This document shows positions 1,699-52,057 of a stretch of DNA of 64,000 nucleotides, piece by piece. This DNA is from Flavobacteriia bacterium (lineage in GTDB: Bacteria; Bacteroidota; Bacteroidia; Flavobacteriales_D; Crocinitomicaceae). The notes under the pieces are model-generated. The model saw only the letters and a program-made list of their open reading frames with translations. It had not been told where the DNA came from and did no database searches. The stretch lies in NCBI GenBank assembly GCA_009924735.1, contig RFQZ01000002.1, forward strand, positions 1-64,000. Direction: 5' to 3'. Each line of letters opens with the position of its first letter. Position 1 is the first letter of the stretch. The position numbers and the translations under genes were made by a program.

Positions 1699-4079
1699 CA
1701 GAACTTCATTTGAACCTGAACAAGGAAGTTTCTAGGTGCTTGTATGTCGCCGGGACGGCTTGAGTATTCAACGTTGAAAAGGTTATTGGCAATAAAGCTT
1801 AATCGAAGCTTTTCACTGAATTTATAAGCTATACGTGCATCAAAAACCACAACGCCACGATTATATATTTGACGATACGCTTTTAAACCAGGTAAGATGT
1901 AGGTGGTTCCAGCAATTGGTTCTTCAAATACTTTGTCAATGTTTTTCATGAAACTGTTGTAGCGAGAAGAGATTCCCACTCCGATTTTTTTGTAGTTCGC
2001 TTCAATATCTGCCCTGACCAAATGCTTGAATCGATATTTTAACATGTTCGTTGTTGTATCGGAATTAAAAACAGTGTATTTTGGGTCATTATTCAATGAT
2101 ATGGGATTCATGTAAGTGTAACCCATGAGGGATATCACTTCTACGGGTCCGATTTTCCCCATGCTGTTAAAGCTCAATTCAACCCCTGTAATTTGTGCTT
2201 TTTCAACATTCATAGCGCGAAATCCAATCATGTTGTTAATGGTATACCCTTGTGCAATCAATCCCTGATATTCACTTAATCCAGCTGAAGTTGAGGGGTC
2301 TAAATTATTTCCATTGGTTGGGTTGTAAAGTCCGAAGGAAAATTCAATCATGTTTGAATAATTATTGATAAACCCAGCGATGTCAATCATTCCTTTCCAA
2401 TCACCCATTTTCACCCCTTGCTTGATTCCGATTTCCGCTGCCCATCCTTTTTCAGGGGTTAAGTTGGCATTAGGAAAAATGTTAAGCGATCCTACGGAAG
2501 TACTGGTAAATCTTTCACCAACTGCCGGATAGCGAATTCCTTGACCATATGATGCTCGTAAGTGGGTGAATTTTTTAACTTCATAGTGCGCGCCTGCACG
2601 AAAGATGGGATAAACGGGAAGGGTTAGTTTTCCCATTTTAAAGTCCGAATCTCCACTTTTACCATCCATGATAAAATGTTCCACCCGCATTCCAGCTGTG
2701 AAGTCAAATTTTCCTATGTGATGTTCGTATTGAGCGTAGAAAGCTGCATTATTGGATTGATGGTTTCCAAACAAATTGGATAAGACCATATTTGTAGTAT
2801 TTGACAGACCCGAAATTAAGGTTCCTCCGGTTTTGAATTGGCGTTGGAAATTATAATCTGTGAAATATACGACGGCACCATTGCTTTGGGCACTGTTGCT
2901 AATGTTTTCATTTTGTGTCCAATACATCCTCGTTTTCAAGTGGTGTTTGTTGTTGAATTTGTCGATGTAAATAAGATATGGATCGATGAACAAGCGATTT
3001 GCTAAATTCATCGATAACGTAGAGGCAGGATTGCTTGTGTCTGCTCCACCACTTGGGCTAAATCCTAAACTGTCACTTTGCCAAATGAGAAAATTACCGG
3101 TTTTGTGGTATTGATAATTGAATCCAATGCCTGATTTAAACCTTTCAATTTTTTTAGGACGGAAATAAAAGGTACCACTCACCCGACCACGTGTTTCCTT
3201 TTCTCCTTGACGGTATCCTTGGTCATTGTAAAAAACCGTAGACAAGGTATATCCGGTGCTTTTAAACATTTGACTTCGAAACACTTCAATTTGTTGGTTC
3301 ATAGGATTGAACTTTTGTACTGAATCTTTTCCCCACCAAATCAAACTACTGCGTCTTGGATTGTCATAGATTCCTGCCTGTACTTTCACGCGTGTTTCAG
3401 GTGTAGCAGAGGGAAGCTTTTCAGCCATGGCAATGACACCATTAAGGGCGCCACTTCCATACAATACCGATGAAGCTCCTTTAATCACTTCCACTTGCGA
3501 GGCTTGTTCTATGGGAATGGCATTCCATTGGGTGTCTCCAGCATATCCCGAAAGCAGTGGCATCCCGTTCCATAGCACCATGACCCTACTGCCTGCACCA
3601 TATGCGAATCCGGACCCACCACGAATGCTCACTTGACCATCCATGGTAAAAACACCGGGTGTTTGTTCAACCGCTTGCTCTAAGTTTACAATGCCTTTGT
3701 GGTCTATGAGCTGTGGTTTAATGACTTCAATTGAAATCGGAATTTCTTCGATTTTTTGTGCTCTTTTATTCGCTGATACGACAACGGTTTGTTCGTTTTT
3801 TTCATTAACTCCCATGGTAAAATCGAAATTCCCAGCTTTCTCAATTACCAACGTATCGGTTTTGTATTCCAACAAATTGAAGTGAATTTTTACTGGAAAA
3901 TTTGTAGAATTAAGTTGGTATTTACCATCGTAATCTGACAGCGCCTTTTGTCCATCCGATGCATATATTTTAACGCCGAAAAGGGGTTTTTTGGTGTTTT
4001 TATCGGTGACTACGCCTTGGATTTGCGAAAGTGCTAAAAAACCATGTAGAAGGATGATTGCGAGTAGAATGCTTTTCAT
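1698..4079 (-). CDS. TonB-dependent outer-membrane receptor, paralogue 1
   Basis: The protein has 793 residues with a signal peptide ending near LSQIQG. Residues ~20-95 form a carboxypeptidase-D regulatory-like domain (GVVTDKNTKKPLFGVKIYA), as in many Bacteroidota receptors. A plug domain follows (EEIPISIEVIKPQLI, then VSIRGGSGFAYGAGSR and IKGASSVLYGSGALNGVIA). The remainder is a 22-strand-type barrel ending in an aromatic residue (VQVQMKF), the usual barrel-assembly signal. It should import a substrate through the outer membrane with TonB energy. The substrate is unknown, and no SusD-like partner is nearby, which argues against a glycan SusCD system. It shares its architecture and many blocks with the receptor encoded 36 bases upstream. 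Confidence 0.9.
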   Translation of the reverse strand: MKSILLAIILLHGFLALSQIQGVVTDKNTKKPLFGVKIYASDGQKALSDYDGKYQLNSTNFPVKIHFNLLEYKTDTLVIEKAGNFDFTMGVNEKNEQTVVVSANKRAQKIEEIPISIEVIKPQLIDHKGIVNLEQAVEQTPGVFTMDGQVSIRGGSGFAYGAGSRVMVLWNGMPLLSGYAGDTQWNAIPIEQASQVEVIKGASSVLYGSGALNGVIAMAEKLPSATPETRVKVQAGIYDNPRRSSLIWWGKDSVQKFNPMNQQIEVFRSQMFKSTGYTLSTVFYNDQGYRQGEKETRGRVSGTFYFRPKKIERFKSGIGFNYQYHKTGNFLIWQSDSLGFSPSGGADTSNPASTLSMNLANRLFIDPYLIYIDKFNNKHHLKTRMYWTQNENISNSAQSNGAVVYFTDYNFQRQFKTGGTLISGLSNTTNMVLSNLFGNHQSNNAAFYAQYEHHIGKFDFTAGMRVEHFIMDGKSGDSDFKMGKLTLPVYPIFRAGAHYEVKKFTHLRASYGQGIRYPAVGERFTSTSVGSLNIFPNANLTPEKGWAAEIGIKQGVKMGDWKGMIDIAGFINNYSNMIEFSFGLYNPTNGNNLDPSTSAGLSEYQGLIAQGYTINNMIGFRAMNVEKAQITGVELSFNSMGKIGPVEVISLMGYTYMNPISLNNDPKYTVFNSDTTTNMLKYRFKHLVRADIEANYKKIGVGISSRYNSFMKNIDKVFEEPIAGTTYILPGLKAYRQIYNRGVVVFDARIAYKFSEKLRLSFIANNLFNVEYSSRPGDIQAPRNFLVQVQMKF

Positions 4080-4115: not shown

Positions 4116-6431
4116 TTACAAGGACCATTGCAATTGGAGAATGAAGTTGCGAGGTGCTTGGACATCGCCAGGACGGGTTACGTATTCTTGATTCAGGAAA
4201 TTATTTGCAATAAAATTCAATTTGAAGTGCTCCGTAATCTGGTATCCCAGACGGGCATCAAACATAACCAATCCTTTGTTATTCTTTGCCCTGTAATCAT
4301 CTAAGCCAACCAATAGATCTTGTCCCAGTACCCCTGTTTCAAAAATCTTGTCTATGTTTTTCATGTAGCTGTTGTACCGTGAAGATATACCCACACTAAA
4401 TCCCTTGTATGTGCATTGGACATCCGCCTTTACCATGTGTTTGAAACGGTATTTTAAAAGATTAGTGGTTGTATCTGAAAAGGTTAAGCGATAGTTTGGG
4501 TCAAAGTTTAAACTCATTGGATTCATGTAGGTGTAGCCAAGGAGCGAGGAAATTTCTACTTTTTTGATTTTTCCGCTGCTGTTGAAAGAAAACTCTATCC
4601 CAGAAATCAGGGCTTTCTCAGCATTTTTCGCTTGAAACCCCACCCATTTATAGAAATAATTTAAAGCATTCGGATCTGTTGTTTGCAAGGCTGCCATGGT
4701 ATCGGGTTTGTATACACCAAAGGTGAATTCTGTCATGTTCGTGTAGTAATTGACAAAACCTGCAACGTCAGCCATGGCAATCCAATCTCCAATTTTGAAA
4801 ACCTGTTTAAGTCCGATTTCTGCAGCGACTGCTTTTTCTGGTCTGAGGTTGGGATTTGCAAAAATGACGATTCCGCCGACATAGGTCGAAACAAAACGCT
4901 CCGCAACCGAGGGAAACCGAATGCCTTGACCAAAAGAGGCTCTAAGGTGCGTACCCTTTGAGGGTTCATAATGTACTGCTGCCCTAAAGATTGGATAAAT
5001 AGGAAGCGTGTTTGAACCCAAAGTAAGTTTTGAATCTACAGGGAGGGTATCCATTTTAAAAAATTCCAGGCGCATACCTAAGGTGACGTCCCATTTTCCT
5101 TTTCGATGATCGAACTGTGTATAGGCCGCGGCATTTTCACCAATGTGATTTCCGAAAATCCTACTTTTAACAATATTCAGTGTCTGAGAAACGCCAGCTG
5201 TAACGTTGCTGTTCTCATTCATTTTTCGTTGGTATTGGTAGTCAAAGTAAAAGGACTGCGCATTGGAAGCATCGTAGACATTGGTTTCATTGCCGGTTGT
5301 AACAAGATAATATCTGGTTTTAAAGAAATGTTTGTTGTTTTTGTCATCCATTATTTTTAGGTAGGGATCCACGTTGATGCGAATGGCTTTTTGCCTTGAA
5401 AGGGAATTGTCCATGGGTTGATAGCAAGCGGAATCGTTTTTCCAAAGGACAAAAACCCCTGCATCTTGAAGTTGAAGGTTGTAGCTTAGTCCTGTTTTAA
5501 TTTTTAATTTCTCATGATCAGGACGGTAAAACAGGGAGCCATTGATTCGAACCCTTTTTTCATCTTCTCCTTGTCGAAAACCTTCGTTTAGAAAGACATT
5601 GGAACCAAAGCTGAAGCCGAATTTTTTTATGGTTTGCCCAAAATAAACATCTCGCATATGAAAAGTTGGATTCCGGGTCCACCATTTCAAGCTGTTGCGT
5701 TTCGGGTTGTCATAAATCCCCGATTGAATTTTGACTTGTAAAACCCCCTCAGGTCCAGGTTCTTTCTCATTCAAAGCAATAATGCCGTTTAAGGCCCCGC
5801 TGCCGTACAATACCGAAGAAGCCCCTTTTAAAATTTCAATTTGAGAAGCTTGTTCAATTGGAATGGCGTTCCATTTGGCATCTCCGATATCTGGCGAAAG
5901 CATGGGGATTCCATTCCAGAGCAATAATACCCGGCTCCCAGCGCCATAGGCAAAACCGCCTCCTCCTCTAATGCTGACTTGTCCGTCCATGGAATAAACT
6001 CCAGGGCTTTGATTCACCGCTTGCGCGAGGTTGGTCATCCCTTTGTTGGTAACCAAATCGGTTTTGATGATCTCCATGGAAATGGGCACTTCCTCAATTT
6101 TTTGATCTCTTCTTCCAGCCGTGACCACTACGGTGTTCAGGTCTTTTTCTTTAAGTTGAAGTAAAATGGGTAGAGGTGAGTCAAGCTTTTCGATTAAAAC
6201 CTTTGTGACCGCATATTCATTGCTGTAAATTGAAAGGGTAAAAGGTACTTTGGAATTGGGTAACTGAAAGACGCCTTTTTCATCGCTTTTTGTTGTTTCT
6301 TTTTGATCGCTAACCACCCGAGCGTTCTTTACCGGTGATTTTGTTTCTGCAGAAAGTATGAGGCCTTTATATTGACTAAACCCTTGAAAAAGAACAAAAA
6401 ATAAAATGTTAAAAAGTAAGACGTGTCGCAT
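4116..6431 (-). CDS. TonB-dependent outer-membrane receptor, paralogue 2
   Basis: The protein has 771 residues and is clearly paralogous to the next gene in the unit. Both share the carboxypeptidase-D-like N-terminal domain, the plug with VSIRGGGGFAYGAGSR and LKGASSVLYGSGALNG, and barrel blocks such as HLRASFGQGIR and APRNF near the C-terminus. It ends in LQLQWSL, so the terminal residue is not aromatic, unlike its paralogue. It is first in a probable four-gene minus unit (receptor 2, receptor 1, kdsB, HU/SPOR). Its 5' end is 47 bases from the divergent dprA start. The substrate cannot be read from sequence; no siderophore, cobalamin or sugar genes flank it. Confidence 0.9.
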   Translation of the reverse strand: MRHVLLFNILFFVLFQGFSQYKGLILSAETKSPVKNARVVSDQKETTKSDEKGVFQLPNSKVPFTLSIYSNEYAVTKVLIEKLDSPLPILLQLKEKDLNTVVVTAGRRDQKIEEVPISMEIIKTDLVTNKGMTNLAQAVNQSPGVYSMDGQVSIRGGGGFAYGAGSRVLLLWNGIPMLSPDIGDAKWNAIPIEQASQIEILKGASSVLYGSGALNGIIALNEKEPGPEGVLQVKIQSGIYDNPKRNSLKWWTRNPTFHMRDVYFGQTIKKFGFSFGSNVFLNEGFRQGEDEKRVRINGSLFYRPDHEKLKIKTGLSYNLQLQDAGVFVLWKNDSACYQPMDNSLSRQKAIRINVDPYLKIMDDKNNKHFFKTRYYLVTTGNETNVYDASNAQSFYFDYQYQRKMNENSNVTAGVSQTLNIVKSRIFGNHIGENAAAYTQFDHRKGKWDVTLGMRLEFFKMDTLPVDSKLTLGSNTLPIYPIFRAAVHYEPSKGTHLRASFGQGIRFPSVAERFVSTYVGGIVIFANPNLRPEKAVAAEIGLKQVFKIGDWIAMADVAGFVNYYTNMTEFTFGVYKPDTMAALQTTDPNALNYFYKWVGFQAKNAEKALISGIEFSFNSSGKIKKVEISSLLGYTYMNPMSLNFDPNYRLTFSDTTTNLLKYRFKHMVKADVQCTYKGFSVGISSRYNSYMKNIDKIFETGVLGQDLLVGLDDYRAKNNKGLVMFDARLGYQITEHFKLNFIANNFLNQEYVTRPGDVQAPRNFILQLQWSL

Positions 6432-6478: not shown

Positions 6479-7573
6479 ATGGATTTAGAGGAGAAGACGC
6501 AAAAGGCGGCTTTAGGTTTTTTATTTGGGATGGGGGCGATAAGAATTTCAGCGTTGTTATCTAAGTTGGATGACGTGTCTGAAGTTTTCACCTTAAGCTT
6601 GAAAGCGCTCAAATCAAAAACTGGAATTGCAGAAAAGCAGTTGGCAAGCATGGAAAGAGAAAAGGCATTGAGGTTGGCAATACATGAAATGCAGGCTTGT
6701 GAAAAACTGGGGATTGAGCCCCTTTTTTTTCTGGATGAAAAGTATCCTCGAAGGTTGTTGCAATGTGCGGATGCGCCAGTGGTAATTTATGTACAAGGCC
6801 CATTGGATTTAAATGAGCGCAGGGTTGTTTCCATCGTAGGAACAAGAAAAAACACAGATTATGCCAATGAAATCATACAATCTTTCACAGAGGAAATCAA
6901 ACAGCCAGGGCTCATCATCGTTTCAGGGCTTGCCTTGGGCGTAGACACACTTGTTCACAAGAGTGCCTTAAAAAACAACATCCCAACCCTTGGTGTTCTT
7001 GGAAATGGATTGAATAAAATCTATCCTTTCCGAAACACCTCACTTGCGAGGGAGATGATAGACCAAGGCGGAGCCCTATTAAGTGAATATCCTGTCGATT
7101 CATTACCCAATCGAGAACATTTCCCCATGCGTAACCGCATCGTAGCAGGCATGGCCGATGCGGTCGTGGTGGTTGAGAGTCAAGAAAAAGGAGGGTCAAT
7201 TATCACCGCTGAATTGGCCAATGATTACAACCGAGATGTTTTTGCATTTCCAGGATCTGTGCGTCAAATGTATTCCAGTGGCTGCAACATGTTGATTCGC
7301 CGACAAAAAGCGCATTTAATTACAAATGCCTCTGAATTTCTAACCCTGATGAATTGGGCAGACGCACCGAAACCCCTTCAAAAATCATTGGCCATAGAAT
7401 ATTCTCCTGAAGAAAAGGAAATTGTGGACTGCTTGTCAAAATATGAATGCTTACATTTAGATCAAATGGTGCAAAAAATAGGATTTAGTCCCTCAAAAAT
7501 TCAAGCATTAACCTTTTCCTTGCTTTTAAAAAATGGCATTGTCTCACTTCCTGGAAATCGCTATTCAATTTAA
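6479..7573 (+). CDS. dprA: DNA-processing protein DprA
   Basis: DprA loads RecA onto incoming single-stranded DNA during natural transformation and is also widely conserved in non-competent bacteria. The 364-residue protein has an N-terminal helical region, the Rossmann-like core with SGLALGVDTLVHKSA, VLGNGLNKIYPFRN and EKGGSIITAELA, and the conserved FPMRNRIVAG. A C-terminal winged-helix segment (~300-364) follows. The 3' end overlaps the convergent DgkA-type gene by 9 bases. A near-consensus TAACTTTA box at 6450-6457 could serve as its promoter. No com genes are visible nearby, so competence cannot be inferred from this window. Confidence 0.93.
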   Translation: MDLEEKTQKAALGFLFGMGAIRISALLSKLDDVSEVFTLSLKALKSKTGIAEKQLASMEREKALRLAIHEMQACEKLGIEPLFFLDEKYPRRLLQCADAPVVIYVQGPLDLNERRVVSIVGTRKNTDYANEIIQSFTEEIKQPGLIIVSGLALGVDTLVHKSALKNNIPTLGVLGNGLNKIYPFRNTSLAREMIDQGGALLSEYPVDSLPNREHFPMRNRIVAGMADAVVVVESQEKGGSIITAELANDYNRDVFAFPGSVRQMYSSGCNMLIRRQKAHLITNASEFLTLMNWADAPKPLQKSLAIEYSPEEKEIVDCLSKYECLHLDQMVQKIGFSPSKIQALTFSLLLKNGIVSLPGNRYSI

Positions 7574-8073: not shown

Positions 8074-11000
8074 ATGAAAAAAATTATTACTGTTCTTATA
8101 TTCGCGTGTGTTCACTTGATGGCATTCGCACAATTACCAACCGCAAATTTTACTGCAAATCCATTAAGTATCTGTGCAGGTAGCGTCGTAACTTTCACCT
8201 CTACGTCGACCGCCAATGGGGGTGCTGCCATTAATAGTTATTCTTGGAATTTTGGGGATGGTGTTACCGTTACAACTCAAAATCCTGCTCACGTTTTTGC
8301 TTTGCCGGGTACATACACTGTCACATTGGTTGTCACAAACACCACAGGAGGTGTAGATTCTGAAGTAAAGTCAAACTATATTACCGTTTTGCCAGCACCT
8401 ACCGTAGGATTTACGTTGTCAGGCATAGGATGTACAGTTCCATTGACGGTTGGATTTACCAATACGTCCTCCGCAGGGGCTAATTTCACCTACAGTTGGA
8501 ACTTTGGCAATGGTCAGAATTCGTCGCTTCAAAGCCCAGCGAATGTAACCTACAATACAGCGGGTACTTTTGGCATTCAATTGTCAGTTACGAATACCAC
8601 AACAGGTTGTTCTGCAAGTTTTACCGATTCCATCGAAGTGAGTAATTTCCAAGCAGGTATTACCGCGCCGCTCACGGGATGCGTGGGTTCTCCGATTAAT
8701 TTTCAAGACAACTCAACGGTAGGTGCTAACGGTTGGAATTGGAATTTTGGAGGTCAAGGAAACAGCAGTGTTCAAAACCCCTCTTTTACCTTTAATACGG
8801 CAGGTACCTATACTGTTTCTTTAAGTTCTCAAAACACCAATTCTGGGTGTGTTGGAAATACCACTCAACAGGTTACAATTCAAAATAGCATTGCCCCTTC
8901 TTTCACAGGAAATCCCTTAACCAATTGTGCCCCATCTGCGGTCACTTTCGTAAATACAACAGGAGTCGCCGGTACCTACACATGGAATTTTGGAAATGGT
9001 CAAACCTTCACGGGAACCACACCACCGCCTCAGGTGTATACCAACAGTGGTCAATACAATGTTACGTTGTCGGTTAGTACAGCTTCGGGTTGTACAGGGT
9101 CTACGACACAGAACAATTATATAAACATTGTAAACATTGTTGCAGGATTTACGGCAGACCAAACAGGGGGATGTACGCCTTTAACGGTTGACTTTTCAGA
9201 TACTTCCTCTTCTCCAAATCCAGCAAATCCAATTGTCAACTGGCAATGGAATTTTGGAAATGGTCAAACTTTCACAGGAGCGAATCCGCCCAACCAAACC
9301 TATGCGCTAGGTTTGTACGACGTTACCTTGGTGGTTACATCACAATCCGGTTGTATTGATACGCTTTTCATGAATGACTACATTACGGTAGGAGACATTG
9401 ATTTGGTTAATTTCACTGTAAGTCCTTTGGTTACTTGTGCCAAGCAAAATGTAAACTTTACCAATACCTCTGTCATCAGTGTGCCGCATCAACCCAATGA
9501 AGTCACCTACTTGTGGGATTTTGGGGATGGAACCTCAACACAACAAAACCCTGTGCATCAGTTCACGGCAGATACGGGTTATATCTCGGTTGAATTGGTA
9601 GTTGATTTTAGGGGGTGTAAAGATTCAATCACCATCGATTCAGCGGTGTATGTGTTGGCGCCTATCGCAAAGTTTACGCCTTCCTCTCAGTTGTTTTGTA
9701 ATCCGGCCTCTTTACCCGTAAACGTATCCTTCACAGACATCTCCATTCATGGTGAACAACCTGACAACGTGAATATGACCTGGGAATGGGGCGATGGCAC
9801 ACCCAATACAAACATTGGGAATGCGGTATTGGACGGGCCCAATAATGGAAATGCCGTGCATAATTTCGCGAACTATGGTTCGTATACCGTCGAGCAAGTG
9901 ATTCGAAATTTTACCACTGGCTGTAACGACAGTATTACCAAAACCATACACATATCACAAATTGCCTCACAATTTACCTTGTCAAATGACTCGGTGTGTA
10001 AAAACGATACCTTGTTATTATTCAATTCAAGTACTTCATGGAATAATCCTCCAAGTCCACATCCGATTACCAATTGGGTTTACGCGATGGGCAATGGACA
10101 AACGGTTTCCACGGGACCTAATCCAAGTTATGTGTATACAGCGCAAGGATTGTTTAACATCAACCTTACGGTCACAAATAGCGTCGGATGTACTGCGCAA
10201 ATCTCGCATCCAGTTAGGGTTTTGAATACTCCCTTTGGCATATTAAGTACGCAAGATGCTGTGGGTTGTTCGCCTTTCTTGGTCACCTTCGCTAACAACT
10301 CAATGAATGTAGGAAACGGAATGCCTTTGTCATACTTTGTCACCACCTTCTCTGACAACAACACATCCGTGACCACCAACAGCGTGAATCAACCCATTAC
10401 CCACACTTTTACAGGTTCTGGTACTTACACAGCAACCATGGTAGCTCATGATGTTTTTGGCTGTTCTTCATCCCCAGCAACGGTGCCGATTACCATAACA
10501 AAACCGATTGCTAATTTCACTTTCCCAAGTGTAGTTTGTAATTCAGACACCACACTGACTGTAAATTCCTCCTCAGGTGTTGGCACATTAACTTACGAAT
10601 GGTACATGAATAACCAGCAAGTTTCGACAAGTGCTGATACAGGATTGATCTATAACGCACCTGGAAATCTACCCGTTTCTCAATTAACAGATAATTTCAC
10701 CGTTTCCTTGATTGCCATTGACTCCAATGGATGCCAAGATACCTTAACACAGTTGGTAACTGTTTCTCTTCCTCACGCCATTCCTACCTATACTTTTTCT
10801 GGGGCAGCACAAAATGGCAATGGAGAATATACCTGCCCACCATTGTTTGGCGCTTACGTTGATTCATCACAATCCTATGGGAACCTTACTGCGTGGAACT
10901 GGCAGTTTGGAAATGGAAATTCCTCAACCTTGGAGGACCCTAGCAACACTTTTGTTACGAATGGTGTCTTTGATTTGTATTTTCAAGTTACGGATCAATA

Positions 11001-43909: not shown

Positions 43910-45355
43910 ATGGAAATACTTAAAAATTACATCGACGGAGGCTTTCATGCACCCCTTCAAGGAAAGTACCTTGATAATTTTGAACCCGCAACGGGAAAGG
44001 TGTATGCACAAATTCCTGATTCAGATGAAAAGGACCTCGAGACTGCTGTCCTTGCAGCCGAAAAAGCATTCCCACTGTGGTCAAACCTACCCCTAAATGA
44101 GAGAAGTGCCATCTTGCTTAAGCTTGCGAAAGGCATCGAAGACAGAATGGATGCATTTGTAAAGGCAGAATCCAGGGACAATGGCAAACCCGAAAAACTC
44201 GCCGCACATGTAGACATTCCGCGTGCCATCTCGAATTTTCATTTTTTTGCTACGGCCATCGAACATTTCGCTTCGGAATCTCACTATATGGAACAAGTAG
44301 GAATCAATTTTACCACCCGACGTCCCATTGGCATCGTAGGATGTATTTCGCCTTGGAACCTTCCACTGTATCTTTTTTCATGGAAAATCGCCCCCGCTTT
44401 GGCCGCAGGGAATTGCGTAATTGCCAAACCCAGTGAAATCACACCTTACACAGCGTTTTTACTTGGAGAAGTGGCGACAGAAGCCGGATTACCTCCTGGG
44501 GTTTTGAACATTGTTCACGGCCTCGGAGCCAACATTGGGAGCGCCATGGTTGCCCATCCAAAAATTAAAGCCATTTCCTTCACCGGAGGGACAACAACAG
44601 GGGAGAACATTGCGCGAATTGCCGCACCCATGTTTAAAAAATTAAGCTTGGAACTCGGAGGAAAAAACCCAACGGTTGTTTTTCCAGATTGTGATGTCCA
44701 ACAAACTGTCAATGAAGTATTTAAATCTTCTTTCTCCAACCAAGGTCAAATTTGCCTTTGTGGCTCTCGGATTTTTATCCATGCAAGCATTTATGACGCG
44801 TTTAAAGAGGCGTTTGTAAAACGTGTTAAGTCTGCAAAAACCAGTTACCCGAGTGATCCTTCCGCACAATTAGGTGCCGTAGTGTCTCATTCACACATGG
44901 AAAAAATACTTGGCTACATTGCTTTGGCTAAATCCGAAGGTGGCATTTTGTTGGCAGGCGGAAATAGAATCCACCTTGACGCCCCCCATGAAAACGGTTA
45001 TTACATAGAACCTACTGTTTTCGAAAACCTGCCCAACCAATGCCGCATTAACCAAGAAGAAGTTTTTGGACCCTTGGTTACCTTGATGCCTTTCGATACC
45101 GAAGCGGAAGTAATTGGGTTGGCAAATGATACGAAATATGGCTTGGCAGCATCGGTTTGGACAAAGGACCTTAACACCGCGCATCGCGTTGCGGATCGCT
45201 TGGAAATGGGGATTGTTTGGGTGAATGCATGGCTCGTAAGAGACCTTAGAACGCCTTTCGGTGGCGTGAAAGCCTCAGGGGTTGGACGAGAAGGCGGGTG
45301 GGAAGCGCTGCGGTTTTTTACAGAACCTAAAAATATAATGATAAAATACCTGTAG
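43910..45355 (+). CDS. NAD(P)-dependent aldehyde dehydrogenase (2-aminomuconate/hydroxymuconic semialdehyde type)
   Basis: The 481-residue protein is a full-length ALDH. It has the oxyanion asparagine in CISPWN (N150), the cofactor loop SFTGGTTTG, the general base E248 in LELGGKNP and the catalytic cysteine C282 in NQGQIC. The sequence leans toward the ALDH8/AMSDH group that oxidises aminomuconic or hydroxymuconic semialdehydes, as in tryptophan-kynurenine breakdown, but no other pathway gene is present, so the substrate remains open. It lies 12 bases after the S9 peptidase gene and ends 3 bases before the convergent nifU-type gene. Confidence 0.9.
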   Translation: MEILKNYIDGGFHAPLQGKYLDNFEPATGKVYAQIPDSDEKDLETAVLAAEKAFPLWSNLPLNERSAILLKLAKGIEDRMDAFVKAESRDNGKPEKLAAHVDIPRAISNFHFFATAIEHFASESHYMEQVGINFTTRRPIGIVGCISPWNLPLYLFSWKIAPALAAGNCVIAKPSEITPYTAFLLGEVATEAGLPPGVLNIVHGLGANIGSAMVAHPKIKAISFTGGTTTGENIARIAAPMFKKLSLELGGKNPTVVFPDCDVQQTVNEVFKSSFSNQGQICLCGSRIFIHASIYDAFKEAFVKRVKSAKTSYPSDPSAQLGAVVSHSHMEKILGYIALAKSEGGILLAGGNRIHLDAPHENGYYIEPTVFENLPNQCRINQEEVFGPLVTLMPFDTEAEVIGLANDTKYGLAASVWTKDLNTAHRVADRLEMGIVWVNAWLVRDLRTPFGGVKASGVGREGGWEALRFFTEPKNIMIKYL

Positions 45356-45358
45356 AAA

Positions 45359-45598
45359 TTAAATAGATTCTACTGCAGAGATTTCTGGAACCGCTCTTTT
45401 GACGGTTTCTTCGATGCCACCTTTCAAGGTTGAGTTGCGCATAGAACAATCTTGGCAAGAACCTGTTAGCCTTACCTTCACAACAAAGTCAGCAGTTATT
45501 TCCACCAATTCAACGTCTCCGCCATCGTCGTTCAAAAAGGGACGAATTTGAGAAATTGCGTCCTTTACCTTTCCCTCGATGGATTTCATGTCAATCAT
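45359..45598 (-). CDS. NifU C-terminal-domain Fe-S carrier protein
   Basis: The 79-residue protein is just the NifU C-terminal (Nfu) domain. It has the start region VKDAISQIRPFLNDDGGDVE and the cluster-binding C-x-x-C pair C48/C51 in GSCQDCSMRNSTLKGG. Such proteins bind a 4Fe-4S cluster between two subunits and pass it to target enzymes. Its ATG lies inside the 3' end of mrp (8-base overlap), so the two Fe-S proteins are made together. Confidence 0.92.
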   Translation of the reverse strand: MIDMKSIEGKVKDAISQIRPFLNDDGGDVELVEITADFVVKVRLTGSCQDCSMRNSTLKGGIEETVKRAVPEISAVESI

Positions 45599-46661
45599 TT
45601 TTGTTGCTTACGTCGAAAATACGCGCTACGAAGTTATGAACTAAATCTTCAAATGCCAAGGCGACCAAAGTGCCTTCTTGCAAGACTGCAGGCCTGCCCA
45701 CATCGCCAGACTCTCGGATGCTTTGGATCAAAGGAATGGCTCCCATAAAATGCATGTCCATGCCTTCGGCTAAATTTTTAGCACCATCTCTACCGAAAAT
45801 ATAATATTTGTGGTCGGGTAGTTCCTCAGGGGTAAACCAAGCCATGTTTTCTACAATCCCTAAAATGGGAACATTCATGCCATCAACCTTAAACATGTTA
45901 ATGCCTCTTTTAGCATCTGCCAACGCTACTGCTTGCGGCGTACTTATGATAACAACCCCATCCAAAGGTAAGGTTTGAACCAACGAGAGGTGTATGTCTC
46001 CAGTTCCCGGAGGTAAATCAATCAGCAAAAAATCAAGTGCGCCCCAATTTCCTTCGGTAATCATTTGTGTGAGCGCTTTTGATGCCATGGGCCCACGCCA
46101 AACCACTGCATTGTTCGGGTCGGTAAAAAATCCAATGGAAAGCAACTTCACACCATGGCTTAGGATAGGTTCAATTAAGGATTTTCCATCCACTGAAACC
46201 ATGTTGGGACGCTGTCCTTCAACATCAAACATGGTTGGCATCGAAGGACCGTAAATGTCTGCGTCGATTAACCCTACCGTGTATCCTTGTTTTGCCAAAC
46301 CTGCAGCTAAGTTTGCCGTTAAGGTCGACTTTCCAACCCCTCCCTTTCCAGAGGCAATGGCGACAATGTGCTTCACCTCGGGCAAGATGGTTCTACGCGT
46401 TTTTCTTTGTTCTCCACTTAAAGCTTGGACCCGACACGATACCTTAACTTCGTTGCCAAACGCATTTCTCAAGGCTGAAACAATGGTCTCTTCTAATTTT
46501 TTCCTTGCATGTAAGGCAGGATTCGTGCTGTAAACTTGAAGGGAAAGTGCGCCCTCCTGTATATCAATCTCTTGCACCAAGTTGGCACTTACAATGTCTT
46601 GCTTAGATTCTGATTCATACACATTCGATAATGCCTCAATGACTTCTGATCGGTTCATCAT
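45591..46661 (-). CDS. mrp: Mrp/NBP35-family P-loop ATPase, Fe-S cluster carrier
   Basis: The 356-residue protein has an N-terminal MIP18/FeS-assembly domain (~1-85) and a deviant Walker A loop, ASGKGGVGKST (~107-117), of the MinD/Mrp class. Further family blocks are LIDADIYGPSMPTMF, DFLLIDLPPGTGDIHLS and IVENMAWFTPEELP. Homologues such as ApbC carry a bridging Fe-S cluster on a C-terminal C-x-x-C pair; I do not see such a pair here, where the position reads AWFTPEELPDHKYY. It overlaps the lipoprotein gene upstream by 4 bases and the nifU-type gene downstream by 8. Confidence 0.92.
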   Translation of the reverse strand: MMNRSEVIEALSNVYESESKQDIVSANLVQEIDIQEGALSLQVYSTNPALHARKKLEETIVSALRNAFGNEVKVSCRVQALSGEQRKTRRTILPEVKHIVAIASGKGGVGKSTLTANLAAGLAKQGYTVGLIDADIYGPSMPTMFDVEGQRPNMVSVDGKSLIEPILSHGVKLLSIGFFTDPNNAVVWRGPMASKALTQMITEGNWGALDFLLIDLPPGTGDIHLSLVQTLPLDGVVIISTPQAVALADAKRGINMFKVDGMNVPILGIVENMAWFTPEELPDHKYYIFGRDGAKNLAEGMDMHFMGAIPLIQSIRESGDVGRPAVLQEGTLVALAFEDLVHNFVARIFDVSNKND

Positions 46662-47212
46662 TTTGTTTTCAGTTTAAAAGATCGTATGGATTTAGCCATG
46701 AGTTCAACCACCTCTTTTCCATCGCCTGATTCTTTGTTTTTAAGTTCGTAATAATAATCGCCCAATTTTTTAAGTCCATACACATGATACGATATATGCT
46801 TGTATTTTGGCGTGTTGATGTTTTTTAGCAATTCCCTTTTGTAAACAATGCAATCTCCTTCATCCTTGAGGATGGTCACCTCAAAGATGTCGTTCTTTTT
46901 CAATGTCGCTTTGAATTCCTTCATTCGTTCAGAATTATCGCCCCAATCTTCTATGAACAATTCAAAGTTCGGTCCGGCAGATATTTTCCATGTAAAATCC
47001 TCGTCGTGAACAATTTTTGTCTTGAAAGACGCGCCAATGCCAGCCGTTTCATCAGGAATAAAAAGGGATGCACCTAAATCATAGTGGCTCAGATCCACTT
47101 CCATGAATTGATAATAGGAATCATCATCGCTTTGAATTTCACCAGACTTGTTGCCAGAACAACCAAGCAACAACCCGAAAGTAAGAAGGAGTCCGAGGAA
47201 TTTTTTTTGCAT
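46658..47212 (-). CDS. Hypothetical lipoprotein
   Basis: The start is placed at the ATG at 47212, giving MQKKFLGLLLTFGLLLGCSG, a classical lipoprotein signal with the acylated cysteine at residue 18. The longer frame upstream has no signal-like character. The mature ~167 residues are charged, with no domain I recognise; they are acidic near the start (GEIQSDDDSYY) and end in VELMAKSIRSFKLKTK. It overlaps mrp by 4 bases, so it heads the mrp-nifU unit. A role in Fe-S assembly cannot be inferred from that alone. Confidence 0.7.
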   Translation of the reverse strand: MQKKFLGLLLTFGLLLGCSGNKSGEIQSDDDSYYQFMEVDLSHYDLGASLFIPDETAGIGASFKTKIVHDEDFTWKISAGPNFELFIEDWGDNSERMKEFKATLKKNDIFEVTILKDEGDCIVYKRELLKNINTPKYKHISYHVYGLKKLGDYYYELKNKESGDGKEVVELMAKSIRSFKLKTK

Positions 47213-47241
47213 TGTGGCTAAGAATTGTGAACGAAGATATA

Positions 47242-47249
47242 TACTTTTG
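47242..47249 (+). promoter_or_regulatory. Orphaned -7 box TACTTTTG before the DUF423 remnant
   Basis: TACTTTTG matches TAnnTTTG and ends 14 bases before the position where the DUF423 remnant has lost its ATG (47264). It is therefore a good candidate for the ancestral promoter of that gene, now driving a dead fragment and whatever follows it. No clear -33 TTG is seen at the normal distance. Confidence 0.4.
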
Positions 47250-47260
47250 GACAAATCCAA

Positions 47261-47359
47261 GTTAAGAATAGCAAGGCGGCCTCATTCTCCATTTTTATTT
47301 TTGCGTTTTCTATCGTTTTGGGGGCTTTTGGTGCGCATAGCCTGAGTAAGGTGGCATCC
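47261..47359 (+). pseudogene. 5' fragment of the DUF423 gene, start codon lost
   Basis: These 99 bases match 48848-48946 at 96 positions (mismatches at 47265, 47338 and 47356). The alignment covers the three bases before and ~32 codons of the intact DUF423 gene. The first mismatch turns the start codon ATG into AAG. After 47359 the similarity stops abruptly at a 10-base palindrome, CATCCGGATG (47355-47364). The fragment is best read as a remnant left when the desaturase segment entered the gene. Confidence 0.9.
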
Positions 47360-47678
47360 GGATGAAAAAATCGGATCCTATTTCTTTGAAATAAATTGTT
47401 TCTCGCTAACTTTAGATTGTAAGTCATTTTCTATGCTCCCAAATTTTCAAGTATTTTATTTTTTTTTAGCCAAGCTGCTTGATGTTCTATACCTAGAGGT
47501 AAGAATTTGCGAAAAACGCAACGAGTAGTTTCATAGTTGCTCAATTCAGTAAGACTACTAAGTACAAATCATTCATCTTTGTAGTATTAAAAAAAGGTAC
47601 TAATTATCCTAACAAGTATTAATTATAAACAACTACCGCAGACCTATTTATCAATCATTGTTAATTTAAAAATTCAAA
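47360..47678 (+). promoter_or_regulatory. Leader of the desaturase gene with operator-like repeats
   Basis: This stretch of just over 300 bases has no gene. It contains TACCTAGAGGTA, a 12-base palindrome at 47490-47501; TTGCG-AAAAA-CGCAA, an inverted repeat at 47507-47521; and the direct repeat GTACTAATTAT/GTATTAATTAT at 47597-47607 and 47616-47626 (19-base period). CATCTTTG (47574-47581) is one base from a -7 box. These could be sites for a regulator of lipid desaturation, for example in response to cold, but no regulator gene is present. Confidence 0.4.
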
Positions 47679-48683
47679 ATGAGCGAGAAAAAAGAAAAAA
47701 ATCAAAGAGAACAAAGACCCTGGCTTAAGATTATAAAGGGCTACAATAAACCTAATCTAATTAAAAGTTGGGGTCAAGTGGCTAATTCTTTCCTACCCTA
47801 TTTTGGGCTTTGGGTCGCCATGTATTATTCATTGGCTATTTCATATTGGCTTACCATAGGACTCTCCATCATTGCAGCAGGTTTTCTAATGCGCATATTT
47901 ATTATATTTCACGATTGTAGCCATGGTTCTTTCTTCGTATCAGAAAGAGCAAATCGTGTAATGGGAATTATCGCGGCAGGCTTTTTATTCACTCCATACC
48001 ATAAATGGCAAGAAGATCACCGAATTCATCACGCAACAGTGGGGAATTTAGACAGAAAAGGCGTTGGGGATGTACGAACATTTACCGTAGAAGAATACAA
48101 GAATTTTAAGCCTTGGCAAAAGCAACTATACAAACTATATCGTAATCCATTAATTCTCTTCTTTATTGGCCCACTAATTTTGTTTCTAATTATATTCCGC
48201 TTTCCACCGAAAGATAGATCTGTTAAAGAAAAAGTCTATACACATCTAACTACTTTAGGATTAATTTTAGCCGTGGTAATTATGTCGCATTGGATTGGTC
48301 TTGTGCCTTTTATTAAAATTCAATTACCAATTCTATTTGTAGCTGCTGGGCACGGAGCATGGTTATTCTACGTACAACATACTTTTGAAGACACAGTTTG
48401 GGAAAGACAAAAAGAGTGGGATTTTGAAACTATGTCATTGAAGGGAAGTTCTTACCTAAAACTCCCTAAAATATTACAGTGGTTTACAGGTAATGTTTGC
48501 ATCCATCACATTCATCATTTATGCCCCGCCATCCCCAATTATAAACTGAAAAAATGCTATGATGAAAACCCTTTGATGCAAATAGAAAAGCCACTGACGT
48601 TTTGGTCATCGCTCAAATGCCTAAGATACAAACTTTGGGACGAAAAAAACAGGAGATTAATCAGTTTTAAGGAGCTTAAATAA
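47679..48683 (+). CDS. Acyl-lipid fatty acid desaturase (omega-6/delta-12-like)
   Basis: The 334-residue integral membrane enzyme has all three histidine boxes that hold the di-iron centre: HDCSH (78-82), HRIHH (114-118) and HHIHH (276-280). It also has the YVQHTFEDTVW and GSSYLKLPKILQWFTGNV blocks typical of bacterial omega-6/delta-12-type desaturases. Several hydrophobic segments (35-75, 93-105, 155-175, 190-228) span the membrane. It would insert a double bond in membrane acyl chains using oxygen and reduced ferredoxin or similar, raising fluidity. It is the only gene in the segment between the DUF423 repeats and likely arrived by transfer. Confidence 0.92.
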   Translation: MSEKKEKNQREQRPWLKIIKGYNKPNLIKSWGQVANSFLPYFGLWVAMYYSLAISYWLTIGLSIIAAGFLMRIFIIFHDCSHGSFFVSERANRVMGIIAAGFLFTPYHKWQEDHRIHHATVGNLDRKGVGDVRTFTVEEYKNFKPWQKQLYKLYRNPLILFFIGPLILFLIIFRFPPKDRSVKEKVYTHLTTLGLILAVVIMSHWIGLVPFIKIQLPILFVAAGHGAWLFYVQHTFEDTVWERQKEWDFETMSLKGSSYLKLPKILQWFTGNVCIHHIHHLCPAIPNYKLKKCYDENPLMQIEKPLTFWSSLKCLRYKLWDEKNRRLISFKELK

Positions 48684-48850
48684 AGTGTGTTGAATAAAAT
48701 GGAGGAATTTAGAAAACTGGGTTTTAAAATTGGATTATATTTGAACAGAGCGTAATGTTGCTCTCGCTTAATTTTTTAATATTTGCAATTGCATCTTTCA
48801 TTGTAGAGTTTTCCTCAAAAGCAGCAAAATAATTTTAATTAGACTATGTT
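48684..48850 (+). promoter_or_regulatory. Spacer between the desaturase and DUF423 genes: candidate promoter and hairpin
   Basis: TATATTTG at 48736-48743 is a full TAnnTTTG match and could start transcription toward the DUF423 gene, ~107 bases ahead of its ATG. Just after it, AGAGC (48747-48751) and GCTCT (48760-48764) form a small hairpin followed by a T-rich run, which might instead end the desaturase transcript. Both readings are weak. Confidence 0.3.
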
Positions 48851-48946
48851 ATGAATAGCAAGGCGGCCTCATTCTCCATTTTTATTTTTGCGTTTTCTAT
48901 CGTTTTGGGGGCTTTTGGTGCGCACAGCCTGAGTAAGGTGGCTTCC
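48848..48946 (+). repeat. Right copy of the 99-bp direct repeat (5' end of intact DUF423 gene)
   Basis: This is the functional copy of the sequence duplicated at 47261-47359, offset by 1587 bases, with 96 of 99 bases identical. It carries the intact ATG at 48851. Confidence 0.9.
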
Positions 48947-49240
48947 TTAAAAATGTACAATGCTTTCGAAACGGCAGTACGTTATCAAATCTACATTGCC
49001 CTTTTTACCCTTGTCATTTCTGTTGGAGCTCAATACTTCACTTTTCGTCTCAAACCTTACCTCCTCGGGCTTTGGGGAGGATTGTTGTTATTTTCGGGAT
49101 CCATCTATGGCCTGGTAATTTTTCACCTTTTGGGGCTTAAGGCCAGTTTCTTAGGTCCAATCACACCCATTGGCGGACTCGTGATGATTGTTTCAGCGGT
49201 ATTTTTCGGAATCAAGGTTTTGAAGAGTCGGACAAGTTAA
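48851..49240 (+). CDS. DUF423-family small membrane protein
   Basis: The 129-residue protein has four hydrophobic helices and the DUF423 (YwdK/YgdD-type) pattern: an early GAFGAHSLSK and MYNAFETAVRYQIYIALF, then LLLFSGSIYGLVI and TPIGGLVMIVSAVFFG. The function is unknown. The gene is intact but its upstream sequence is that of the inserted desaturase segment, so its native promoter appears to have been left behind at about 47242. It may now depend on read-through or on a box within the segment. Confidence 0.88.
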   Translation: MNSKAASFSIFIFAFSIVLGAFGAHSLSKVASLKMYNAFETAVRYQIYIALFTLVISVGAQYFTFRLKPYLLGLWGGLLLFSGSIYGLVIFHLLGLKASFLGPITPIGGLVMIVSAVFFGIKVLKSRTS

Positions 49241-49273
49241 ACGCATTTGAACGATTGCATTTATTGGTTTTTC

Positions 49274-49305
49274 TTGTGCTTTTTCCCTACAAATTGATAA
49301 CTTTG
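49274..49305 (+). promoter_or_regulatory. Promoter of the sucA-sprA run (TTG-N21-TAACTTTG)
   Basis: TTG at 49274-49276 and TAACTTTG at 49298-49305 are separated by 21 bases, a good fit to the Flavobacterium-type promoter. The ATG of sucA is 25 bases downstream. It is the best promoter in the window and the only evident one for the seven tightly packed genes that follow. Confidence 0.6.
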
Positions 49306-49330
49306 CGAACCTTTAATTCCAGAATACAAC

Positions 49331-52057
49331 ATGGACAAAGTTACTTATGTAGGCAACGCGGATGTAAACGCAATCGAGTTTTTATATACTCAATACAAAC
49401 AAAATCCTGACAACGTAGATGTAGGATGGAAGAAATTTTTCGAAGGATTTGAGTTCGCACAAACCTCTTATTCCCAAGGAGATGCTGTTCCAGAGAATTT
49501 TCAAAAAGAATTCAAAGTACTCAACTTAATCAATGGATATCGTACCAGGGGACACCTTTTCACGAAAACAAATCCAGTTAGGGAGCGAAGGAAGTATTCC
49601 CCAACCTTAGACATCGAGAACTTTGGATTGACTGCTTCGGATTTGTTAAATGTTTTTCAAGCAGGCAGTGAGGTTGGCATCGGCCAAAGTACCCTACAAG
49701 ACATCATCGCGCATCTTCAAGAAACCTATTGTGAATCCATCGGGATAGAATTCGTTTACATGCGTGATCCAGAGAGAATCTCATGGATTAAAAGCAAAAT
49801 AGAAATTAAGAACCGCCCCACCTTTGATAAAAACCGCAAAAAGAAAATCTTCGCTAAACTTATCCAAGCCACAGGTTTTGAAGCTTTTTTAGGGAAAAAA
49901 TTTGTAGGTCAAAAACGCTTCTCCATCGAAGGAGGCGAGGCTTTAATACCCGCTTTGGACGCCTTGGTTGAAAAAGGTTCCGAACTTGGAATTGAGTATT
50001 TTGTAATGGGAATGGCCCACAGAGGTCGTCTAAATACGTTGGCCAATATATTTCAAAAACAACCCAGAGACATCTTCTCCGAGTTTGAAGGAAAAGAATT
50101 TGAATTTGATGCGCATTTCGATGGCGATGTTAAATACCACCAAGGTTTTACCTCGCACATTACCTTGGATAACGGGAAGCAAATGGGACTCACCCTTTCC
50201 CCAAACCCGTCACATTTAGAAGCTGTAAACACCGTCGTTGAAGGAATTTCAAGGGCAAAGATAGACCACGTCTTACATTCAGAAGATAAAATTTGTCCCG
50301 TCCTGATCCATGGAGATGCCGCCATTGCCGCCCAAGGAATCGTATACGAAACGATTCAAATGGCACAGTTAGATGGGTATAAAACCGGAGGAACCATTCA
50401 CATTGTGGTAAACAACCAAGTTGGTTTTACAACCAATTACTTGGACGCAAGGTCTTCCACCTATTGTACCGACATCGCTAAAACCACCCTTTGTCCTGTA
50501 TTCCATGTAAATGGGGATGACATAGAAGCGGTTTTGCAAGCCATGGAAATTGCAATTGAATACCGCCAAACTTTTAAAAGAGATGTTTTTATTGACCTCC
50601 TTTGCTATCGTAAATATGGTCACAATGAGGGCGATGAACCTAAATTTACCCAGCCGAAATTGTACGACATTATTCTCAAACACCCGAATCCCAAAGTTAT
50701 TTACCAAAAACAACTGATTGAAGAAGGAAGCCTAACCGATGCAGAAGCCAAAGGAATGGAAGCAGAATACAACGCCTTCCTCGAATCAGAATTTGATGCC
50801 TCACGTAAATCTGAAAAAGCCATAGTATTTGATTTCTTAAGCCTTACTTGGGAAGGTTACCGTCATGCAAATGCTACAGATTTTGAAGTGTCACCACCTA
50901 CAGGCGTAACACGCGAAAAACTTTTGGCACTCGGCGAAAAATTATCCGTGCTTCCAGAGAATAAAAAATATTTCCGAAAAATCTCAAAGATCTTCGAAGA
51001 CCGTTGGAACGCCATTAAAAATGACAAATTAGATTGGGGAACGGCAGAGATGTTGGCTTATGCAACCTTATTGTCAGAAGGCCACAGCGTGCGGATTTCC
51101 GGACAAGATGTGGAACGAGGAACTTTCTCTCATCGACATGCCGTAGTCATTACTGAGGATTCTGAAGAAGAAATCGAAACACTGAACCTGCTTTCAGATG
51201 ACCAAGCAAAATTCTACATCTACAATTCTTTACTCTCTGAATACGGGGTACTCGGTTTTGAATATGGTTACTCCCTGGCAAATCCAAGTGGTTTGACCAT
51301 TTGGGAAGCACAATTTGGAGATTTCTTTAATGGTGCGCAAATCATGATCGATCAGTTTATCTCCGCAGGAGAGGATAAATGGGCAACGCAAAGCGGACTT
51401 GTTCTTTTACTTCCACATGGCTATGAAGGCCAAGGGGCAGAACACTCCAGTGGCAGAATGGAAAGGTTCCTGCAACAATGCGCCGACCTTAACATGCAAG
51501 TGGTCAACACCTCCACACCAGGAAATCACTTCCATTTGCTGAGAAGACAACTCAAAAGAGATTTTAGAAAACCCTTGATCGTTTTCTCTCCTAAAATGTT
51601 ACTCCGTTACCCTGACGCAACGTCTACATTGGCAGAGCTCGAAACAGGCGGGTTTAAAGAAGTGTTGGATGACCCTACCGCTGCGGTTGCCCAAACGGAT
51701 ACCGTTGTTTTCTGTTCAGGTAAATTCTACTATGAAATGAAATTGAAAGCCAAGGAATTAGGCGTTCAAAACATGGCCTTTGTACGTGTCGAACAATTGT
51801 ATCCTTTGCCCATTAAACAAATGGAAAGCATCCTTGAAAAGTACAATCCCGTGAATGTGCTGTGGGCACAAGAAGAACCCGCGAATATGGGGGCTTGGAG
51901 CTTTATGGCACTTCACCTGAAAACCATGAACCTCATCGGCATTTGTAGGGAAGCTACCGCCGCCTCTGCTGAAGGTTCCAAAAAATTACACGAAAAAAGA
52001 TTGAATAAATTATTTGATTCCCTTTTTGTTTACGCCAATATTAACATTGAAAAATAA
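49331..52057 (+). CDS. sucA: 2-oxoglutarate dehydrogenase E1 component
   Basis: SucA is the thiamine-diphosphate-dependent decarboxylase of the 2-oxoglutarate dehydrogenase complex in the TCA cycle. The 908-residue length is normal. It begins with the E1 N-terminal helix ([16 protein letters not shown]), then has [15 protein letters not shown], the ThDP region [15 protein letters not shown] and [13 protein letters not shown], and the transketolase-like C-terminal part ([20 protein letters not shown]). sucB follows 5 bases later. Confidence 0.96.

Follow-up and report, generated by a model that had tools for sequence, protein, structure and literature searches.

A probable insertion with long target duplication places a desaturase gene at the 5′ end of DUF423 in a Flavobacteriales genome

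What kind of event leaves a desaturase gene, with no recombinase gene beside it, between two copies of the start of a host gene? In the window (the whole stretch of DNA that was analysed, 64,000 nt), a direct-repeat search returned a single family, 47261–47359 and 48848–48946, with a length of 99 nt, an identity of 97% (96/99) and a spacing of 1587; the original prediction had stated, with the same match and spacing, that the first ~32 codons of the DUF423 gene occur twice. The repeat begins 3 bp upstream of the DUF423 ATG and contains an exact run of 72 bp. It is the window's only direct repeat of at least 50 bp and at least 85% identity with copies more than 200 bp apart, and is therefore not due to chance. 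The right copy is the 5′ end of an intact DUF423 ORF of 129 aa (48851–49240), while the left copy lacks a start codon and is cut off by a stop one codon beyond its end (GGA TGA, 47360–47365), which bears out the view of the right copy as complete and the left as a dead stub. The three mismatches between the copies are the start codon of the left copy (ATG to AAG) and two synonymous third positions (CAT/CAC and GCA/GCT); only the start-codon mismatch can be polarised, the relatives compared being other species, not strains. The features of the locus are as follows.

46658–47212, minus strand: lipoprotein-like gene, native left neighbour of DUF423 (ORF; ATG at 47212 by eye; no Pfam match)
47261–47359, plus strand: left repeat copy (99 bp), a dead stub of the DUF423 5′ end (repeat search, sequence, stop count)
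47360–47384, no strand: left end of the insert, with uncertain similarity to G039 (BLAST homology starts at 47385; a gapped local alignment extends further left)
47385–48773, plus strand: desaturase segment shared with G039:C42, comprising leader, gene and ~90 bp of 3′ flank (BLAST)
47679–48683, plus strand: fatty acid desaturase CDS, 334 aa, PF00487, DesA-like (ORF and profile searches)
48770–48842, minus strand: HTH_3 (XRE-type) regulator gene fragment, promoter region and first ~11 codons, from a second source
48843–48847: ACTAT, between the HTH fragment and the right repeat copy (sequence)
48848–48946, plus strand: right repeat copy (99 bp), opening the intact gene in frame (repeat search)
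48851–49240, plus strand: DUF423 CDS, intact, 129 aa, PF04241 (ORF and Pfam)
49331–52057, plus strand: sucA (2-oxoglutarate dehydrogenase E1), native right neighbour (ORF and profiles; adjoins DUF423 in 15/29 relatives' loci)

The desaturase with its own leader that had been placed between the copies corresponds to the ORF at 47679–48683 and a leader of ~300 bp. Its product scores 397.6 bits with the DesA Delta(5) desaturase model NF052548, below the cut-off of 500, and is classed no further than as a DesA-like PF00487 desaturase; any benefit to the cell would presumably lie in membrane-lipid desaturation. The insert has a G+C content of 33.7%, versus 41.6% for the window, and its desaturase segment is similar to that of the relative G039 over the leader (82% over 47385–47680), the CDS (90% nt) and the 3′ flank (96% over 48700–48773). 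Further, the insert holds a piece of a third gene beyond what the original prediction had seen. The 73-bp HTH fragment at 48770–48842 matches G117:C30 (L204; 82%, E 8.8e-13) and G005:C18 (L205; 80%, E 5.5e-12), where the homologous sequences open ORFs of 115 aa and 114 aa, respectively; the HTH_3 profile scan, run on the L204 ORF only, gave a match. The remaining matches in that search were weak (E above 7e-4), and G000, the genome of the window, has no other match to the fragment at E ≤ 0.01. The desaturase segment and the HTH fragment have AATT (48770–48773) in common, a 4-bp overlap at their joint. Judged from these similarities, the insert is a patchwork of at least two foreign origins, with a ~1.4 kb desaturase piece and 73 bp from the 5′ end of an HTH gene.

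The desaturase is the only ORF of at least 50 aa wholly inside the insert, which holds no transposase, integrase or recombinase gene; the original prediction had likewise seen no recombinase inside. A transposon was considered and rejected, since the two insert ends have no inverted repeats of at least 20 nt. Rfam gave no match across 45000–50000 at E ≤ 1, and G000 has no second copy of the 1686-bp region. A small inverted repeat in the desaturase leader (47518–47540, GCAAC...GTTGC) is kept, by eye, in all three genomes with a close desaturase, and is possibly a regulatory hairpin.

The state of the site before insertion can be read from relatives. A DUF423 protein search of 100 genomes (own included) found matches in 86, with two matches in G000 only; such a search would probably miss a diverged 32-codon stub. 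The gene context was compared at the 29 best relatives' loci of this search, not at all matching relatives, with the lipoprotein query cut to 46658–47203. The lipoprotein gene directly adjoins DUF423, without a desaturase, in 29/29 of these fetched loci; Mrp also lies beside DUF423 in all 29, and an adjoining sucA is visible in 15. The original prediction had proposed to look for relatives with the order lipoprotein-DUF423-sucA and no desaturase, which agrees with these loci as far as sucA is visible, and had named as evidence against itself an arrangement and repeat shared by all relatives, the reverse of what the 29 desaturase-free loci display. It had also suggested a search of other Bacteroidota DUF423 5′ ends for partial duplicates around different cargo; in the relatives compared here, an internal direct repeat at E ≤ 1e-3 occurs in 0/29 loci, and no relative gave a second DUF423 match. 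The empty site, with lipoprotein and DUF423 genes and nothing between them, is ancestral.

The desaturase has a different distribution. Matches at E ≤ 1e-30 occur in 13/86 genus genomes (own included), and close desaturases (~89% aa to the query) in G000, G039 and G049 only, all other matches being at 38% or less. Pairs of desaturases among these three genomes share 90–91% nt and 71–80% of four-fold sites; for the same genome pairs, sucA shares 70–81% nt and 19–38% of four-fold sites, and mrp shares 65–75% nt and 38–41% of four-fold sites. Because the desaturase identity lies so far above that of sucA and mrp, the gene is a recent horizontal transfer, imported from relatives. Together, the relatives without the insert (29/29 loci) and the foreign desaturase make the locus an insertion and, the right copy being intact, support the original view of an integration that rebuilds its target gene.

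The other two desaturases are found in different settings, flanked in G039 (C42) by a NeuB gene and another desaturase and in G049 (C34) by a carbonic anhydrase and a FISUMP gene, and the block common to the desaturase loci is ~1.2–1.4 kb with ends that differ between pairs. These loci are unrelated and have other flanks, so DUF423 is not the desaturase's attachment site, contrary to what had been suggested; the absence of a direct repeat from all 29 relatives' DUF423 loci argues in the same direction. No repeat was seen around the G039 desaturase (11 kb; the whole 39.7-kb contig as two stretches). Viral contigs held neither an exact 24-base piece of the DUF423 5′ end nor a close desaturase relative (8 stretches matched a pattern, 0 confirmed), and plasmid records with a desaturase match, 208 in number, were all below 60% identity. 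An intergenic repeat of ~90 bp in G049 (L222:8500-8589 and 10000-10090) also lies, by eye, upstream of the G039 desaturase (L033, about 2985-3075).

The G049 locus is itself disturbed. On contig C7 of G039, the genes for TetR, bestrophin, carbonic anhydrase and the 655-aa protein follow one another without interruption; in G049, ~1.7 kb, mostly of the 655-aa gene, is replaced by the desaturase and FISUMP genes together with 273 bp copied from the TetR 3′ end. The TetR stub is 99.3% identical to its own genome's TetR, versus 90.5% and 85.7% to the other copies compared. Because it lies 4.7 kb from its source, the G049 case is a patchwork, not a simple target duplication. In G050, the uvrB end of the region comes straight after the carbonic anhydrase, with neither the 655-aa gene nor its right-hand neighbours, so that the G049 'deletion' is judged against G039 alone. 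The same desaturase has thus entered G000 and G049 at unrelated sites, each time with a stray partial copy of a neighbouring host gene.

A direct repeat of 31 bp and 84% identity tightly flanks the G049 desaturase (L185:5776-5806 and 7158-7188 in G049:C34; L068:4760-4790 and 6142-6172). Among 86 genus genomes, its 14-bp core occurs in G049 only, twice and both times beside the desaturase; an integron was considered here, but by eye the 14-bp motif is unlike attC boxes. FISUMP genes (Fib_succ_major, PF09603) are repeatedly the cargo of such scars or lie next to them (L185:7391-7984, L219:8155-8850 and L275:4330-6132).

Two surveys covered scar-like loci elsewhere in the genus. The strict one (repeats of at least 50 bp and at least 85%, copies more than 200 bp apart) took in 61 stretches and 1.244 Mb, including the window and L182-L186, loci already under study, and gave nine rows; its non-scar rows were dispersed-looking and intergenic pairs in L222, a promoter repeat and a third partial copy in L219 and two paralogous genes in L254. 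A survey at looser thresholds covered 67 stretches and 1.31 Mb, among which the window, the last six stretches and L182-L186 are known loci, and yielded 23 repeat pairs. By eye, five pairs are scar-like (window; L185; L219 lipoprotein/Fic; L219 tRNA/FISUMP; L201), eight fall inside ORFs that are paralogous or repetitive (L216, L223, L237 twice, L254 three times, L265 7906), and ten are intergenic, dispersed-looking or ambiguous (L182, L219 13808, L222 three times, L229, L246, L248, L263, L265 3126); L275, the G045 case, stands outside this count of 23. No clear scar was seen in 100 kb each of G002, G005, G015, G017 and G024, where two G005 pairs (L246 and L248) are ambiguous.

Two of the scar-like pairs are on one contig of G049 (C4). 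In the first, a Fic gene stands between two copies of a lipoprotein gene's promoter and 5′ end (149 bp, 90%), the complete gene being on the right; in G045 and G050, this lipoprotein gene has no Fic gene next to it. In the second, a FISUMP gene lies between 163-bp copies (92%) that start within the final 10 nt of tRNA-Met, and here the tRNA tail and terminator are duplicated, not a gene start. In G045, a whole glycosyltransferase gene has, 3 kb upstream, a 55-bp stretch of its own 5′ end (96%), and the interval holds FISUMP cargo and a RhuM 3′ fragment, the latter shared with G039. Matches to this glycosyltransferase in G049, G050 and G006 begin within 16 bp of the gene start, and the G049 gene abuts its upstream neighbour; the G045 stub is 96.4% identical to its own gene versus 89%, among the copies compared. 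G039 (L201), with the same glycosyltransferase, a 79% stub and a RhuM gene, is a weaker case, whose stub may be a paralogue's remnant. Duplication lengths at the other loci range from 55 to 273 bp. Since the duplications across the genus differ in length and in the gene copied, and enclose different cargo, they point to a process, not an attachment site.

The stretch after tRNA-Met is variable, with different genes in G049, G045 and G039 (L219:7786-17600 of G049:C4, compared with L263 and L226). Within it, a multi-gene block (L219:12791-15571) is ~85–86% identical to G039:C38 (L265) and stops precisely at the start of the duplicated lipoprotein 5′ end.

The best reading of the locus, which we favour with moderate confidence, is that illegitimate (non-site-specific) recombination made an insertion with long target duplication. 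At a break or stalled fork near the start of DUF423, repair would have copied or joined taken-up fragments, with template switching and a 4-bp microhomology at one joint; synthesis would then have re-entered DUF423 99 bp upstream of its exit point, so that the stub left upstream is dead and the gene downstream whole. Where an insertion broke a useful gene instead, it would mostly be lost, and the survivors would come to resemble precise, target-rebuilding integration with no enzyme choosing the site; the duplication would have been kept probably because the target was rebuilt. Repair or template switching, selection and natural transformation are steps that we infer, and microhomology is clear at 1/3 joints, which we count against this explanation. 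A ComEC gene is present in G000, and the same search matches 10/14 control genomes; as ComEC is the sole support for transformation and is widespread, natural transformation as the entry route is a guess.

A less likely, though serious, alternative is homology-driven entry, where the donor already had the order desaturase-HTH stub-DUF423 and came in as a circle through one crossover (Campbell-type) or as a linear molecule with one illegitimate end (homology-facilitated illegitimate recombination, HFIR). Such entry duplicates the shared 5′ end and would give the same picture if the donor had the desaturase beside DUF423, and single-crossover lacZ duplications are described from E. coli conjugation (PMC3240628). 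The repeat copies, differing at 3/99 sites of which two are synonymous, resemble two functional alleles, and a DUF423 copy brought in by a donor would account for the synonymous differences as well. However, this route requires a near-conspecific donor rearranged at DUF423, and none occurs among the relatives searched, which are other species; 99 bp is short for a crossover; and the stubs of G049 C34 and G045 are nearest to their own genome's gene among the copies compared, as local copying predicts.

It is improbable that the HTH fragment and the desaturase arrived in separate events, only one of which made the 99-bp duplication: the insert does have two foreign sources, and several foreign blocks are stacked at one site in G049 C4 and in G045, but a single event is simpler, and the AATT joint lies between the two foreign pieces. 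An assembly chimera is very improbable; the genome is fragmented (74 contigs) and the repeat has its 72-bp exact run, but the left joint (47359/47360) is not in the repeat, both copies have private bases, and similar layouts are found in other assemblies. The small cassette of the original prediction, which a site-specific recombinase would mobilise in trans and for which the start of DUF423 would serve as attachment site, would account for the rebuilt target, as with islands, but is hardly credible given near-identical desaturases at unrelated loci with different ends and flanks in G039 and G049, the repeat-free DUF423 loci of all 29 relatives, an HTH gene 5′ end within a patchwork insert, duplications that vary elsewhere in length, gene and cargo, and viral contigs that match neither the DUF423 5′ end nor the desaturase.

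If illegitimate recombination is the right reading, transfers of one gene can get into tightly packed genomes with no mobile-element machinery, and afterwards mimic precise integration. Moreover, scars that are readable from sequence (stub, cargo, rebuilt gene and patch pieces) could serve to tally illegitimate captures in environmental genomes and to test their causes. A bolder proposal, to which we give little credence, is that single genes travel in this Flavobacteriales genus as repeat-tagged units without a recombinase. Illegitimate capture would duplicate part of the target, RecA would loop the gene out between the resulting repeats, and the circle could go back into that target in another cell; stub, cargo and rebuilt gene would then be the recurring form of gene gain, and each scar would record a capture that can be counted.

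Our literature searches, at the level of listings and abstracts, showed no report of this layout in Bacteroidota, and the locus can be compared with four known systems. Genomic islands moved by tyrosine recombinases rebuild their target gene and leave a stub at the other end. The locus is like them in both respects; in contrast, its insert is a 1.5 kb patchwork, with no integrase gene and no shared attachment site, and neither an encoded recombinase nor a conserved attachment site, the mark of a site-specific island or cassette, is found here. In E. coli conjugation, 56/60 Lac- clones gave a duplication PCR product and 14 sequenced clones had lacZ duplications of 109–950 bp, read as single crossovers of a circle (PMC3240628). 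Like these HFIR and single-crossover products, the locus joins foreign DNA to a partial duplication of the target gene; there the incoming DNA was of known homology, and none is shown here. Transposed Arabidopsis genes are non-transposon genes that lie between direct repeats copied from host sequence, and excision of a circle is proposed for them (PMC2869330). The arrangement of a non-transposon gene between such repeats is shared, but the Arabidopsis case is eukaryotic and concerns movement within one genome.

The closest kind is insertion with long target duplication, which Nobusato, Uchiyama, Ohashi and Kobayashi reportedly described in 2000 (Gene 259:99-108) for restriction-modification genes of Helicobacter pylori. 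According to later papers, it was found by comparing H. pylori strains and is tied to R-M genes (PMC1643837, PMC3031569, PMC2749054, PMC3154945). In both, a foreign gene is joined to a long direct target duplication of variable length that is recognised by genome comparison. Further, the locus has an empty allele (between species), a 99-bp duplication at both ends, and no transposase, integrase or terminal inverted repeats; R-M linkage, which is frequent in this kind but does not define it, is absent, the cargo being a PF00487 desaturase. It also differs in its Flavobacteriales host, in the piece of a third gene within the insert, and in that the relatives compared are other species, not strains. 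Overall, the locus belongs to this known kind, insertion with long target duplication, with another cargo, another host group and a patch structure of its own.
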